Shown here piece after piece: positions 14,105 through 29,041 of a stretch of 32,497 nt of DNA. Position numbers and translations under genes: made by a program. Positions within the stretch are counted from its first letter, which is position 1, and the number at the start of each line of letters is the position of its first letter. The notes under the pieces were generated by a model, which saw only the letters and a list, made by a program, of their open reading frames with translations, did not search any database and had not been told where the DNA came from. This DNA is from Candidatus Marsarchaeota G2 archaeon ECH_B_1. GTDB lineage: Archaea > Thermoproteota > Thermoprotei_A > Marsarchaeales > Marsarchaeaceae. The stretch spans positions 54,982 through 87,478 of the forward strand of contig NEXG01000003.1 in NCBI GenBank assembly GCA_003019535.1, in the 5' to 3' direction.

Positions 14105-15493
14105 TTAGTTTTTTTGCATCAAGATCTTTTCAATCAGTGTTGATGCTTCGCTGAAATCGTAGTTTCTGAATAGCTCTATTCTGCTCGCCTCGATTGATCC
14201 CTCCGCGTGAACCATGAGTGTGAGCATGCAGCCAGCCATGCTTGTCGCCCCGAGCTCCTTGGCCAACTTCAACACCTCTATTCTGTCCCGTGCATTAGTG
14301 GCTCCACTCATATACTTCTCAATTAAGCTCTTTAAAGCGCCCTCCAAATCCTCCTCTGAAGGCAGGGTGGCAATTATACCGCCCGAGATATCTATGAGTG
14401 AGCGTAGCACCTCCGTAAAATGAGTGTTGGAGTAGATTTTGCCGATATTTGTGTATACGGGGTTGGGGACCGCTACACCCCCAAATAGTGAGGGTTGACT
14501 TGACGCCGCGATGGCAGCCATCTCCATAACTTCCTTGTACGTAACGATTTCCAGGATCCCGTCGCGCACGTGTTTTTCAGATAAGAGGCCGTTAGCCTTC
14601 GCCGCCGCTAGGGCCGCTCCGAGGTAGAGATTCGCCGTCGCCGACCTATAGCTAATGGCTGTAAAGCGGTGGAAATTAGCGAAGAGTGTAGCCAGCCTAC
14701 CAGCGTGGGTTGTGTTCCTTGAAGAGAAAAATCCTCTCCCAAGGCACGAACACATCATCAAAGATTGTAAGCGTCTCAAGCTCGTAGTCAAGTCGGCTTA
14801 GGATGGAGGATGAGTTGCCCTCCACTTCCTCTATTGGCCTCACAACCATGCTTAGACCCCGAGTGTTTGCTGGCACAGCGAAGGCCACCGCGTAATCCTC
14901 CTCGTTAACCCTCAGACTCCGTGGAGATAACAATTATTTCGTCAGACACCGCTGACTGCGTCGTGTGCGCCTTAGCACCCCTAACAATGATGCCATCATC
15001 TCTCTGGTCGACTACACGTAAGTAAAGGTTCTTGTTTTCCTGCTCAGAGGGCCTCTTAGACCCATCGCCCTTAACATCCGTTTGGGCAACCGCCAAAGCA
15101 AGATCCCCCCTTGCAACGAAGCCAAAATACTCCTTCACCCTCCCCCCAAACTCATCACCAAGCTTGGAGCCTAGAGCAAGTAACACGAAGAGCTCATCGC
15201 TTCCAATCGCTTGAGAGATGTTAAAAACGCCGTTTCAGAACATCGTGGTTTCGTAAACCAGTCTATACCTAATCAAGAAGGTCATCTGAAGTCTTTGGAA
15301 CCCTATAAAACCTGCTTATCTAACCCAACCCATCCACTGCGATTCCCCTATCATGATAATCATAGAGCTTGGCGGCGTGCCTAGCGGTAATACACAGAAC
15401 TGGATGGTGCACTATGTCCCCCACCAGTTCACCTCTGTAATACACCCTTCTACCATCGTTTAATGAGTTGAGAAACTGCTCTGAGCTTCTCAT
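14105..15493 (-). pseudogene. HpaB-type flavin-dependent hydroxylase (4-hydroxyphenylacetate 3-monooxygenase family), multiply disrupted
   Basis: Pieces of one protein lie in order in all three frames. From ATG 15493, EQFLNSLNDGRRVYYRGELV and ARHAAKLYDYHDRG are the HpaB N-terminal domain, stopping at TAG 15320-15322. Then VPKTSDDLL and IRYRLVYETTMF appear in two frames before a TGA at 15235-15237. AIGSDELFVLLALGSKLG to VVISTES-like sequence covers 14930-15230; ANTRGLSMVVRPIEEVEG to FDDVFVPWERIF covers 14700-14930. The helical C-terminal domain (FHRFTAISYRSATANLYLGAA onward) ends at 14105. Intact members are FADH2-using hydroxylases or 4-hydroxybutyryl-CoA dehydratases; no Fe-S cysteines are visible, so the hydroxylase side is favoured. 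At least two stops and three frameshifts make it a true pseudogene. The promoter remains. Confidence 0.85.
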
Positions 15494-23663: not shown

Positions 23664-23676
23664 ATAGTAATTCTAT

Positions 23677-23684
23677 AAATTTTC
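23677..23684 (+). repeat. Target-site duplication, left copy
   Basis: AAATTTTC directly outside the left inverted repeat; the same eight bases flank the right repeat at 24425-24432. Eight-base duplications are typical of IS6-family insertion. Confidence 0.85.
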
Positions 23685-23701
23685 GATCCTGTCCGGATAA
23701 G
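23685..23701 (+). repeat. Left inverted repeat of the IS6-like element
   Basis: GATCCTGTCCGGATAAG, perfectly complementary to 24408-24424. Confidence 0.9.
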
Positions 23702-24365
23702 GATTCATCCGTGTCACCTCCACTCAGTGTACCAGTGCATGAATAGTTCGAGGAGTCCACGAGTGGTGTAAAGAGTGCTTTCTTGGGGTTGATGTTATTA
23801 TAGAACACTCTGGTCCTGTCTTTGAGGTAGCCGAAGAAGCGCTCGACTGAGCTCCTCAATCCAAAGGTCTGGTGGACGTGGTTTTGGAAGCCCGCCCGGA
23901 TCACGGAGTCACGGTACCAGGGACCCCTATCAGTAAGTATCACCGGGTCTCCGAGGCATCTCCCCCTCAGCCTCCGCAGGAACCTGAGCGCGTTCTCCGT
24001 GGTCCTCCGGTGTGAGTGAGGCGCCGAACCAGACGGGCTGCCTGGTATAGGTGTCCACAGCCACCCATACATAGATCGGTCTGCCACCACGCTTCACCAC
24101 ACTCTCATCCACCGCGATCGCTTGGTGCCAGCTCGGCTCCGCGTCGAAGTTGAGTTTCCCCTCAACCCTCCTCACCCACTCCTCCGAGTACACTCGACTT
24201 CGAGACGCGCTCAGAGAGCACCCAGAAGAACCGCGAGGTCTTCCTGAGGCTCAGCCCAAAAGCGTAGAGCAGCACCGCAACCACTTTGAGTTCGAACCTC
24301 TTCCTGTTCCTCTTAAAAACATTTAAATCCCTGAAGAACTCGAATATGTCCGTGGTGGGCTCCAC
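23702..24365 (-). pseudogene. IS6-like DDE transposase, broken by two frameshifts
   Basis: Three overlapping frames give one transposase. From ATG 24365 an N-terminal helix-turn-helix part (SLRKTSRFFWVLSERVSKS) runs to about 24190. The second frame holds EEWVRRVEGKLNFDAEPSWHQ and the first catalytic Asp in AVDESVV, then VWVAVDTYTRQPVWFG, to about 24015. The third frame holds TENALRFLRRL, the second Asp in ILTDRGPWY, and the Glu in RSSVERFFGYLKDRTRVFYNN. The three acidic residues are therefore all present, and single-base corrections near 24190 and 24015 would restore one frame. The third frame has no stop before the left repeat, so the last residues may also be out of frame. The lesions could be real or sequencing errors; IS6 elements normally use a single open frame. 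Confidence 0.8.
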
Positions 24366-24407
24366 GGTCTCTCACCAATTCAGTTCCGTGGCGCCCACCA
24401 CTTAAGG

Positions 24408-24424
24408 CTTATCCGGACAGGATC
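24408..24424 (-). repeat. Right inverted repeat of the IS6-like element
   Basis: CTTATCCGGACAGGATC on the plus strand, the exact complement of 23685-23701. Confidence 0.9.
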
Positions 24425-24432
24425 AAATTTTC
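24425..24432 (+). repeat. Target-site duplication, right copy
   Basis: AAATTTTC directly outside the right inverted repeat, identical to 23677-23684. Confidence 0.85.
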
Positions 24433-24634: not shown

Positions 24635-27600
24635 TTATAGAAATGCGTACAATCCGTCTGGTAGTTCGCCCTCACTGACTATTAGTTCTCTGACAATTTT
24701 GTCTATTTGCAATACTTCCTCTTCTATCTCGGCTTTGACCAATTGCCGGATCTTTCCAATTCCAGAATACTGCTTTTCAAGCTCGGGTACAATCTTCGAA
24801 GCCTTTTCGCTTGCTCTTTTCGCTAGATTTACGAGCATCATATGCTCGTTCTTTCTAGGATTAAATTTTGGTAGCGGTAACTCTAAAACCTTTTTATGTA
24901 TGTGTCTTTCTCCAAACTGCCCACGGCTCTGCATTGGTTTAATCAACGAATCAATTATTGGTGCATTGAGCAAAGCAGAAAGGAACAAAGCTTCATTTTC
25001 GTCATCTGTGTCATATCTATAAACTGTTGCGTCAGCCACTACCCCAGAAACCCTGATCGATGAGCTGTCAACCTTGACGTTCGAAGGCTTATTCACAACG
25101 ATGCATGACACCAAGTAAGTCCCAGAAGTGTTATAGAGCACCCTATACTTAACACGACTTCTTTGGTCCGATAGTCCTCTTTGATAATCTAGCCTGTCAT
25201 ATATGGTCATCTTGTCTGCCTTCTCTCCACGCTTTCCACTCCAAACCTCTTCTGCTCTAATCAGCCAATGGTATAAACCAGAATAGCCTTTTTGTTTAGC
25301 CTCTTCTGAATGAATGATATGGTATTTTCCACCTTTGGGTTCTATGGGTAACACCACAAGAGGCAGTTTGGTGGTGGAAAAAGGTGCTATTTCAGAACCA
25401 GTTACAACCAAATATAGAAACTGAGACTCAACTTCGCCTTCAACAATAACGTCTTCATATTCTTTCTTTGCCTTTTCGATAGCTCTTTGAGAGGTTTTTA
25501 ACCTAGGCTGTGTTGGATCAATGCCAAGCTTGGGGTGGACTTGAGGCTCAACAAACCAGAGTTGTCGCGGAACGATAGTAGCTCCTTGGGTAAAACTTTC
25601 ATAATAATAACTTTTCTTGCCTCTATCTATTGCCTTAAGTACCGTTTCAAATTCCAAATCTTCTAGGAAAGACCTGTCTCCTATTGCATATTCCGTAAAT
25701 TTTTTGTTTTCTTGATTTAAAGCTCTTAAGGCTTCCTTTAACTTTGTATTTCTTTGTAAGAGCCTACCTTTTAGAACTATGGTATCTACTGGATATACGT
25801 TGATGCCCTTTTTGGCTGTTATTACACAGCTAGGTACACGAAACAATGGGTCAACATGTTCGAGGTCTAATATTTCAATAAACCTCATATTTGGTTTGTA
25901 TTTACCTCTTCTAAAGTTGTGATGATGGTCGCTTACAAAAATGCTGCGTGGCATTACAAAGGAGATTATGCCTTCATCCGCGAGATAAAGGTCGCTGCAT
26001 CGTGCGAAGAAAAGCGTCGCGAGCTCCATTTGAGTTATCAACTCAGCCCTTTTCGTATCGAGTAAATTATACTCATTTAATATCATGTTTTTAAGAAACT
26101 TTTGGTAGTCTGTGCTCTCTACATATCTATATGAGAGCCAAGGTGGGTTACCCACAACAACATCAAATTTCTTGTCTTTTAGAAATAGCGGCTTGTAGAT
26201 GTTTTTGAGAATAAATGCCCAAACGGTATCTCTCTTAAGCTTGATAAGTTCTGCCATAGCTCTTGCTGAATCGAAGAGAACCACGATGCTTTTGGAATCG
26301 ATTTCTCTATTAATCTTCTGGGTGATAATGTTACTGAAATCGTCCAGTTTTGGTTTGTCCCCTTCAGCTATTTTGCGAGCATATTCCTTAACCCCCTCGA
26401 CCACTTTATCGGTTAGATCGGGGTCTACTGTTATGCTGACCGGTAAGCGTAAGATCTTTTTATCCGCTTGAATTTTAAACGACTTTACGCCTTCATAGAT
26501 AGTTACATCGGATTCGGGTAGTCGTATTGAATCAGCTAGATACACTGGCACTGAGATCGGTCCACGTCTTGCAAAAAGTAAATCCGTTCCTAGAGCAGTA
26601 AGAAAGTTTGTTCTTGCAAGTATTACTGCTAATGGATGCACATCCACACCTCTAACTGAAGTTAATATAGCCTGCAATTGTTGAATTGGCCTTCTGCCCC
26701 TTAACAGTTGTTTCTTCTTGCGAATACAGGCAGCGAGGAATGTACCTGAGCCGCACGCGGGGTCGAGGACACTCTTATCTGGATCATCTTTTAATATCCT
26801 TTCTATCATTAGCTCCGCTAGCCAGTCTGGTGTATAGTATTCTCCAAGCTCGTGCCTTGCATTTGGGTCCACTAGCTCTTGGTATAGGGACTTCAGAATA
26901 TCTTCGTCTACCGTGGATAAATCGTAGGAGGCTAATCTGTCGAGGAGTATCTGAGCCGCCTTGATACCGGAATCCGTTCTGGCAACCCATGAAAAGAAGT
27001 CCTCTTCTAGGAAGTTGTGCACATTCCATTTCTCGAAAATCTTTCCCTCAAGGATTTCACATACCTGCTCGGATGAAACGGGTATAGCCCCGCCTGAGAA
27101 GGAGGAGTAAACAAGCAATTTGGCAAGCGTGGCTAAATAAGAGTGTCTGATGAATAAATCTTCGCTGTCAACACTGGAGCCATAGACTATTCTGAGAAAG
27201 CCAGCCCATTGGTCGTACAGTACCTTTTCCTCGCTCTCCTTCCAAGCCTGCTTGAGAAAGGCTTCTGAGTCTCTGAAGGCTGGTTTATTCAGACCGAATT
27301 CATTTGAAAAAGCCTCGGCTGTGGGCGGTCTTCTAGCCTTCGATAATATGTATCGGTCAAGCCAGACAAAGGCCTCTCCTGGATTGGTTCTTGTAAGGTT
27401 TATCTTGTCTATTTCATCTAAAAAGACATCGCTAGGTATTACTTCTACTTCTCCAGGATCAGCTCTTGGTCTGTAGCATACGAAGTTTATTCCGTCAGTA
27501 GCAATCGCCACATACTGTATTCTACGTTCTTTTTGTTGCGTCCATAAAATCGAAATGTAACGACGAAGTTCAGATTCGGCTTCATTTTTACTCTTTTCAT

Positions 27601-27862
27601 CGAGTTTCTTTTTAAACTCAATTATGAGGTTTCCGAGCATGGCATCTGGCCGCCCCTTTACAGTGAGAGTTTTTGTTTTACCTACAAGATGCTTTTCTAA
27701 GTCGGGGTATAGTTTCTCCGAATAATCTACATTAACCTGCTTGAATGTATTCCTTATGAATTCTAGGAAGAGGTAGGATTTACTTGCCTCAGAGTTAGCG
27801 AGGCTTACATCTTTCAGATATCGCTCGAAGTTTTCTTCAAAGTCAGGAGGTGATTTCGACAA
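24635..27862 (-). CDS. Type IIG-like restriction endonuclease/N6-adenine DNA methyltransferase
   Basis: A single 1075-residue protein expected to cut and methylate DNA at a specific site. N-terminal nuclease: GRPDAMLGNLIIEFKKK (70-86), with Asp73, Glu82 and Lys84 as a PD-(D/E)xK site. A helical spacer follows. The methylase begins with HELGEYYTPDWLAELM (337-352), the SAM loop DPACGSGTF (367-375), an acidic VDVHPLA (406-412) and the adenine-binding NPPW (572-575), as in gamma-type N6-adenine methylases. The last roughly 400 residues (WFVEPQVHPKLG, then SALLNAPIIDSLI and FGERHIHKKVLELPLP) resemble target-recognition regions of Eco57I/TaqI-like enzymes. It starts with TTG 27862 directly after the stop of a 53-codon ORF, with GAGGCG upstream. 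The gene is visibly AT-richer than its surroundings, suggesting transfer. A BREX PglX-type role is an alternative, but no BREX partners are present. Confidence 0.9.
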   Translation of the reverse strand: MSKSPPDFEENFERYLKDVSLANSEASKSYLFLEFIRNTFKQVNVDYSEKLYPDLEKHLVGKTKTLTVKGRPDAMLGNLIIEFKKKLDEKSKNEAESELRRYISILWTQQKERRIQYVAIATDGINFVCYRPRADPGEVEVIPSDVFLDEIDKINLTRTNPGEAFVWLDRYILSKARRPPTAEAFSNEFGLNKPAFRDSEAFLKQAWKESEEKVLYDQWAGFLRIVYGSSVDSEDLFIRHSYLATLAKLLVYSSFSGGAIPVSSEQVCEILEGKIFEKWNVHNFLEEDFFSWVARTDSGIKAAQILLDRLASYDLSTVDEDILKSLYQELVDPNARHELGEYYTPDWLAELMIERILKDDPDKSVLDPACGSGTFLAACIRKKKQLLRGRRPIQQLQAILTSVRGVDVHPLAVILARTNFLTALGTDLLFARRGPISVPVYLADSIRLPESDVTIYEGVKSFKIQADKKILRLPVSITVDPDLTDKVVEGVKEYARKIAEGDKPKLDDFSNIITQKINREIDSKSIVVLFDSARAMAELIKLKRDTVWAFILKNIYKPLFLKDKKFDVVVGNPPWLSYRYVESTDYQKFLKNMILNEYNLLDTKRAELITQMELATLFFARCSDLYLADEGIISFVMPRSIFVSDHHHNFRRGKYKPNMRFIEILDLEHVDPLFRVPSCVITAKKGINVYPVDTIVLKGRLLQRNTKLKEALRALNQENKKFTEYAIGDRSFLEDLEFETVLKAIDRGKKSYYYESFTQGATIVPRQLWFVEPQVHPKLGIDPTQPRLKTSQRAIEKAKKEYEDVIVEGEVESQFLYLVVTGSEIAPFSTTKLPLVVLPIEPKGGKYHIIHSEEAKQKGYSGLYHWLIRAEEVWSGKRGEKADKMTIYDRLDYQRGLSDQRSRVKYRVLYNTSGTYLVSCIVVNKPSNVKVDSSSIRVSGVVADATVYRYDTDDENEALFLSALLNAPIIDSLIKPMQSRGQFGERHIHKKVLELPLPKFNPRKNEHMMLVNLAKRASEKASKIVPELEKQYSGIGKIRQLVKAEIEEEVLQIDKIVRELIVSEGELPDGLYAFL

Positions 27863-28024
27863 TTAAAGCGCCTCACGATTTTGGTAAATATCAAATATGT
27901 ATAAGGCGAGCTCCGACGCGTTCACCAGTGATTTTTCAAAGCTTTCCAGAATAATATTTGTATTAGCCGGTCGCCTATTAAAGTAAGAATCTGGGCCATA
28001 AGTTAGAAAAGTCACGAAACTCAC
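27863..28024 (-). CDS. Small protein preceding the restriction-methylase, function unknown
   Basis: A 53-residue frame from GTG 28024 to TAA 27863-27865, ending one base before the TTG of the large restriction-methylase gene. It has a clear Shine-Dalgarno (GGAGAG, 28031-28036) and an in-frame stop just upstream, so its extent is well bounded. The C-terminal two thirds is a probable amphipathic helix (TNIILESFEKSLVNASELAL, then YIFDIYQNREAL); the N-terminus contains TYGPDSYFNRRP. No DNA-binding motif is obvious. Its position suggests a partner or controller of the enzyme, or a translational-coupling leader for its TTG start (inference). Confidence 0.6.
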   Translation of the reverse strand: MSFVTFLTYGPDSYFNRRPANTNIILESFEKSLVNASELALYIFDIYQNREAL

Positions 28025-28044
28025 TTTACTCTCTCCTTAAAATA

Positions 28045-28585
28045 TTATACGTTATAGGCTATTAAGTAGTAATGACTAGGACTTAATAAAGTTTCTTGAA
28101 CGTGAAACAAAACAACGGTTTATTGGGCAATGCCAAATGTAGCAGCGTAGAACTGTATTATTGTACCCATTGGAGTTGCACACAATCTAGTCACATCATT
28201 TCTCCTGCACTGACATCCTATTCTAAAACACACCTGTGCAGGAGAGGCGATATATACATAGAGAGAAACCCCTCCAGAGTTTTTCACTCATCGCCATTTT
28301 CCTGATAGTGTCTGGATAATTGTTTACCGCGCTTGGAGGCAACGCCCAACACCCCAAATACAGACGCTATCATTTTTCTCGCGCAAGGCCTCAATTGGTG
28401 TAACACTATACTGTGAATAACACTCTGTCTGCTTGATCCAACAGTTGATGGTCCTGTCACTAAATCCGAATGCCGCTATAACACACGGGCGATCGCCACA
28501 TTAGCCACCAAATATACGTAGCAAAAACTCCAGTGAATCCGTTCTTTTAATGAATCTTTCGTTTATTCATGTATAATATTAGTTC
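28045..28585. other. Gene-free region upstream of the restriction genes, possible IS relic
   Basis: About 540 bp with no convincing reading frame. A CGTATAATATTTT stretch near 28039-28051 (minus strand) may be the promoter of the 28024/27862 pair. At 28302-28318 GATAGTGTCTGGATAAT matches the IS6-like terminal repeat at 13 of 17 positions in left-end orientation. About 117 bp inside it AACACTCT recurs, as it does 128 bp inside the intact left end. This is weak evidence for a decayed IS copy. Confidence 0.35.
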
Positions 28586-28942
28586 TTAGTTGGAGCCCCC
28601 TCGAGCCAATGTGGAATATATTCCGTAATGTCCTTTAAGATGATGGGTACCTATTCGCTCAGAGCATTCATAGCGTGTGTTGTTGCCTACTTGATAGCTG
28701 TTTAACTTAACCAATAACAAATTAATGCCTTCTGATAACCATGTTGCTCTATACAAGTTACTCCACTTTGACGCAAGTGTTCTATTTATTCGCGAATAAT
28801 TTCGATGCCTCTTTAAGTCGTTCCGGCCTGAAGTTGGAATGATCTCTTTCCCATTTCCCCTCTCAAGTGAATCTGTGTCGACATAGATAATTGTTGCCTT
28901 ATCATTCTTGTTGCGATTAAGCACTACAATAATCATAAACAT
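28586..28942 (-). CDS. Doubtful ORF between tRNA-Cys and the restriction island
   Basis: An open frame of 118 codons from ATG 28942 (FMIIVVLNRNKNDKATIIYV near the N-terminus, then basic HRNYSRINRTLASKW) to 28586. There is no recognised domain. The frame also runs open upstream through the tRNA gene, which weakens its value. It has no Shine-Dalgarno. It could be a small acquired gene or a fragment of a transposase-like protein; I cannot support either. If it is not coding, the whole 28045-28952 stretch is gene-free. Confidence 0.2.
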   Translation of the reverse strand: MFMIIVVLNRNKNDKATIIYVDTDSLERGNGKEIIPTSGRNDLKRHRNYSRINRTLASKWSNLYRATWLSEGINLLLVKLNSYQVGNNTRYECSERIGTHHLKGHYGIYSTLARGGSN

Positions 28943-28952
28943 AGTATTGCAG

Positions 28953-29041
28953 AGCCGGGGGTGGGATTCGAACCCACGGATAAGCGGCTGGCTACGTTGA
29001 CCACTGCAGGCCGCCGCCTTAGGCCGCTCGGCCACCCCGGC
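28953..29041 (-). tRNA. tRNA-Cys (anticodon GCA) with a probable 14-nt intron
   Basis: On the minus strand the acceptor strands GCCGGGG and CCCCGGC pair perfectly, with discriminator U and no encoded CCA. The D arm is GCC...GGC and the T arm GTGGG-TTCGAAT-CCCAC is perfect. The anticodon stem GCGGC/GCCGC encloses 21 nt instead of 7: CTGCAG, 14 extra bases, then A. Reading CU-GCA-GA as the loop gives a cysteine tRNA with an intron after position 37, the canonical archaeal site. The variable region TTATCC resembles archaeal tRNA-Cys. The exact splice points need a bulge-helix-bulge check. Confidence 0.88.

Follow-up and report, generated by a model that had tools for sequence, protein, structure and literature searches.

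Introduction

In RM.BpuSI, MmeI and DrdV, an N-terminal nuclease, a gamma-class methyltransferase and a C-terminal specificity region are combined on one chain (PMC4081073). In restriction-modification (RM) systems with C proteins, the standard arrangement places the control gene upstream of the restriction endonuclease (REase) gene, often with an overlap (PMC3850674). Our literature search found no report of small-ORF coupling in RM systems.

Here we analyze a 32,497-nucleotide stretch of contig NEXG01000003.1 of Candidatus Marsarchaeota G2 archaeon ECH_B_1 (hereinafter, the window), where a first-pass annotation pointed to a large, type IIG-like ORF preceded by an abutting ORF of 53 codons. 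The large protein shares the domain layout of RM.BpuSI, MmeI and DrdV, with structural matches at E values from 3e-9 to 8e-11, but is only ~12% identical to these enzymes, which represent different subfamilies. The family captured by the PADLOC model PDLC03630, which includes plasmid proteins annotated as 'N-6 DNA methylase' or 'restriction endonuclease BseRI', such as that of Salinibacter ruber pSR35, has the same domain order, length and motifs; the specificity region of the window enzyme is expected to differ from those of this family, and relatives lack the small ORF that abuts it. The top structural match of the enzyme model is the BREX protein PglX/BrxX (8c45, E=2e-14). However, the window enzyme scores 40.7 bits against the respective NCBIfam model, compared to the cut-off of 400; there are no brx or pgl genes near it, and, unlike BREX, it possesses an N-terminal PD-(D/E)XK motif. 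The position of the small ORF, directly upstream of the REase gene, resembles that of the small gene in C-protein systems, but its predicted product contains no HTH, is not conserved and matches no fold in the PDB, and the locus lacks a separate methylase whose expression would have to come first. Taken together, our results indicate that the locus probably consists of a solitary type IIG RM enzyme at a tRNA-Cys hotspot, accompanied by a leader ORF that is specific to the lineage and has no conserved product.

Results

The large ORF and its relatives

The enzyme gene (24635..27862, minus strand) starts with TTG and encodes 1,075 amino acids in an intact reading frame. The motifs appear in the order D73...E82-F-K84 (PD-(D/E)XK), DPACGSGTF (motif I) and GNPPW (motif IV), followed by the C-terminal specificity region, so that all the nuclease and methylase signatures reported in the first-pass annotation are present. 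Pfam detected N6_Mtase and Eco57I; these methylase families alone scored above the cut-off, and the helicase/ATPase domain found in the type I, ISP and III enzymes is absent. The PADLOC type IIG model PDLC03630 covers residues 51-1061 with E=8.5e-104. An AlphaFold2 (AF2) model built from an alignment of eight rows has a pLDDT of 72, with a weak C-terminal region, and, in a fold search, matched BrxX, CamA, M.BseCI, LlaBIII, DrdV, MmeI and BpuSI. The PADLOC model, the alignments of relatives, the motifs and the predicted fold thus agree with the initial type IIG-like assignment: by every feature that can be tested in a sequence, this is a type IIG enzyme. Its catalytic activity and target recognition are what we infer from these features.

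Full-length relatives with the same architecture, at 30-53% identity, are found in both archaea and bacteria. The closest, of full or nearly full length, are L092 (53%; from IMG/VR, split by a frameshift), L038 (48%), L001 from Thermodesulfovibrio (45%) and L039 (43%), followed by L090, L091, L040, L041 and L094 at 40-36% and others at lower identities; plasmid relatives include the one on pSR35 of Salinibacter ruber (33.5% identity over 98% of the length). A scan of viral contigs with the single enzyme sequence produced no matches, and the same scan with an alignment as the query recovered 18 loci. The D and E residues of the nuclease motif (D-x8-E-x-[KE]) are invariant in the window protein and in 17/17 aligned relatives; in the same alignment, DPxCGSG (one DAACGSG) and GNPPW are retained wherever the sequences of the relatives cover them. 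At the third catalytic position (enzyme residue 84, approximately 27611-27613), K and E alternate among the close relatives.

The start of the enzyme gene and the 53-codon ORF

The 53-codon ORF (27863..28024, minus strand) begins with GTG and ends with a TAA that is immediately followed by the TTG of the enzyme, both ORFs sharing one frame, a point not made in the first-pass annotation. The GTG is preceded by the SD-like sequence AAGGAGAGAG (28029..28038, minus strand); thus, both the strong ribosome site of the small ORF and the TTG directly after its stop, which had been noted previously, are borne out. Another SD-like element, GAGG (27871..27874, minus strand), is located 8 nt upstream of the TTG, within the small ORF. 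In the alignment, the relatives have 0-28 residues ahead of the position corresponding to residue 8 of the window enzyme, and the TTG at 27862 is the sole ATG, GTG or TTG between the TAA of the small ORF and the region of residue 8. Because the N-termini of the homologs are short and there is no alternative start codon in this interval, we conclude that this TTG is the start of the enzyme.

We estimated how often such an arrangement arises by chance using first-order Markov sequences with the composition of the island, in which an ORF of at least 53 codons had to end no more than 20 nt from the enzyme start. The expectation for an SD-led ORF abutting the start is 0.27% (0.0027), a post hoc figure, and rises to 1.7% without the SD condition. 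The codon score of the small ORF is 0.03 compared to 2.2-13.7 in segments of the enzyme gene, that is, below 20/20 of these segments, and is equaled by 12% of stop-free shuffles. A single-sequence AF2 model of the product consists of two helices with a pLDDT of 79 (~94 for residues 31-50); a PDB fold search with this model returned no match, and no Pfam or NCBIfam family and no HTH were detected in the sequence. A candidate BRE/TATA element, AAGAAACTTTATTAA (28083..28097, minus strand), is located upstream of the small ORF, with a promoter scan score no better than chance, and the archaeal promoter scan found an equal-scoring TATA-like site within the small ORF itself (27887-27900); the scan did not single out a transcript start.

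Absence of the 53-codon ORF in relatives

The first-pass annotation itself named a lack of protein-level conservation of the small ORF in related loci as grounds for rejecting its proposal; such conservation was not observed in any of the 21 relatives or in the searched databases. No homologs were identified in the viral contigs, plasmids and phages, in 196 relative genomes apart from its own, or in the class to which the nearest enzymes of the genome collection belong (44 genomes, a set with no positive control). The regions upstream of 21 relatives (15 plus six from viral contigs), including those of the 53, 48, 45 and 43% identical enzymes, contain nothing that resembles it: the best Smith-Waterman scores are 19-33 for the 15 relatives, with shuffles reaching 31-44, and 23-28 for the six further viral-contig relatives. 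Matches in genomes with E values between 0.01 and 1 are short, several with internal stops, and were taken as chance. Given that the closest relatives are only at 53% identity, our comparison would miss a partner that this lineage acquired recently.

A short gene of the UPF0758_N family (RadC N-terminal type, helix-hairpin-helix; 93-105 amino acids) directly precedes or overlaps the type IIG gene in two of the relatives (L001, 3667-3948; L091, 2574-2891). Although seen in only two loci, this gene outranks the 53-codon ORF as a candidate for a recurrent small neighbor. Descent of the 53-codon ORF from the UPF0758_N gene was considered and rejected, since significant similarity is absent.

A variable site next to tRNA-Cys

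The GC content is 0.39-0.46 over 24.0-28.5 kb and about 0.49-0.58 across most of the window, so that the locus, at ~40% compared to ~52% around it, indeed differs from its neighbors in composition, as originally described. A second dip (0.42-0.45) occurs near 13 kb. In an AT-richer stretch, a lone C-terminal domain of HpaB is encoded (14105-14791, minus strand, 228 amino acids); no ORF of at least 100 amino acids next to it contains the N-terminal part, and this gene is possibly truncated.

An IS of 746 bp (23682..24427, minus strand) with 20-bp terminal inverted repeats is located on one side of the enzyme gene. It has many related copies in the genome, and its transposase, a weak match to the DDE_Tnp_IS240 type, is split over several frames. 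On the other side, we identified a MITE-like dispersed repeat of ~70 bp (28303..28371, minus strand), with the ends GTGTCCGGAT...ATCCGGACAC, 33 matches in the genome (G000) and terminal inverted repeats that resemble the IS ends. A composite transposon with two IS copies was rejected because the second 'IS end' is this dispersed repeat. Farther on lies a tRNA gene (28952..29041, minus strand) called Ala(tgc) by ARAGORN, which, in our reading of the sequence, is tRNA-Cys(GCA): it has U73 and is interrupted at position 37/38 by a 14-nt intron, TGGTCAACGTAGCC. This tRNA is likewise misnamed in the loci of relatives. Both flanks given in the first-pass annotation, the IS and the tRNA gene, hold up, the latter reading as Cys(GCA) rather than Ala. 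By contrast, the suggested defence island dissolves into a single defence gene, that of the enzyme; the other neighbors in the window are housekeeping genes, including those for RtcA, a metallophosphoesterase, a rhodanese/MBL protein, PmbA/TldD proteins and a Na+/H+ exchanger.

On two contigs of G001, a genome from the same genus, the gene order is the same, with flanking genes 86-98% identical. On one of these (L073), the distance from tRNA-Cys to the metallophosphoesterase gene is 423 bp, an empty site, compared to 5.3 kb in the window. On the other (L074), ~2.4 kb of unrelated DNA is inserted between the 3' end of the tRNA and its direct repeat, GAATCCC[A/G]CCCCCGGCTC, past which the sequence of the empty site resumes. 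This insert (L074 5728-8210; contig C32 of G001) contains ORFs that, when tested, had no Pfam match. As L073 has the empty site, the G001 assembly may mix strains. Homology between the window and the sister genome breaks exactly at the 3' end of the tRNA (28952), where the island starts, and picks up again at 23664; the enzyme, the IS and the MITE-like repeat lie in the 5.3 kb non-homologous stretch between these points. In a search of the window for a tRNA-end direct repeat (att), only the tRNA itself matched, and no integrase family was detected in the ORF at 28586-28951. Because the sister genome is empty at this site on one contig and carries a different insert on another, we conclude that the enzyme occupies a tRNA hotspot. 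Our results also support the foreign, mobile character that had been attributed to the locus.

Discussion

These observations translate into a simple scenario for this locus. The enzyme, presumably acquired by horizontal transfer at the variable site that follows the 3' end of tRNA-Cys, combines on one chain a PD-(D/E)XK nuclease at the N-terminus, a gamma-class N6-adenine methyltransferase in the middle and a DNA-recognition region at the C-terminus. It is predicted to methylate its target on the host DNA and to cut unmethylated DNA near the same target; with both activities on one chain, a separate methylase or specificity protein would not be needed. A protein that only methylates, its nuclease activity having been lost, might be envisaged, considering that the position of K84 is occupied by E in several relatives, so that not all members of the family adhere strictly to PD-(D/E)XK. 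We deem such a loss quite unlikely, however, because D, E and K are all present in the window copy, whose frame of 1,075 amino acids is intact and whose domains are conserved, and because some active enzymes, BamHI among them, are known to have ExE variants of the PD-(D/E)XK motif.

Translation of the enzyme begins at the TTG right after the TAA of the small ORF, and the key question is what this ORF represents. The shared frame and the single stop that separates the two could suggest that it is the original N-terminal part of the enzyme, severed by a nonsense mutation; yet none of the 0-28 extra residues of the relatives can be aligned to the small ORF and a GAGG precedes the TTG, which makes this origin highly improbable, and the fused or broken N-terminus was discarded given that the relatives begin near the TTG. 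The first-pass annotation proposed a coupled small protein that might regulate, inhibit or assist the enzyme, or serve as a leader that enforces coupled translation. The strong SD, the exact TAA/TTG junction with its chance expectation of 0.0027, the confidently modeled helix (residues 31-50, in the single-sequence prediction) and the precedent of control genes upstream of REase genes in C-protein systems (PMC3850674) are all compatible with a dedicated, trans-acting inhibitor, activator or regulator. Nevertheless, the partner proposal did not survive the comparative analysis, and we now regard such a partner as improbable: the ORF is missing before all 21 relatives, including the 53 and 48% identical enzymes, searches of 240 genomes and of viral, plasmid and phage records yielded no homolog, matches to families, HTHs and structures are lacking, and the codon score is under those of all 20 enzyme segments. 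Moreover, with both activities on one type IIG chain, control that delays the nuclease would be superfluous. The opposite view, that the ORF is an untranslated product of chance and that transcription and translation of the enzyme start independently, has considerable appeal, even if we rate it somewhat short of an even chance. It is consistent with the codon score, within reach of stop-free shuffles, with the 1.7% of random sequences that carry such an ORF when the SD is disregarded, and with the AT-rich TATA-like site inside the ORF at ~27900, but leaves the good SD and the exact junction to coincidence. We consider it nearly an even prospect that the small ORF is a translated leader.

The best reading of the small ORF is, accordingly, a leader ORF that lacks conservation, whether or not it is translated. 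If it is translated, for which the chances are about equal, its role would be limited to an effect in cis, with ribosomes delivered to the weak TTG start; such coupling, which we infer, is possible. The helix predicted for the second half of the product, together with the improbable occurrence of an abutting, in-frame, SD-led ORF, is suggestive and leaves room for a real small protein. Specifically, a lineage-specific, newly arisen micro-protein or sensing leader that controls an archaeal type IIG enzyme at the level of translation is conceivable, albeit unlikely.

Three different contents of the tRNA-Cys hotspot described here are seen in a single genus. The locus adds to the type IIG enzymes a full-length archaeal member whose distribution is patchy and horizontally spread. 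Only if the small ORF turns out to be translated would the abutting leader, for now an unconserved curiosity, provide a test case for the throttling of single-chain restriction enzymes in archaea.
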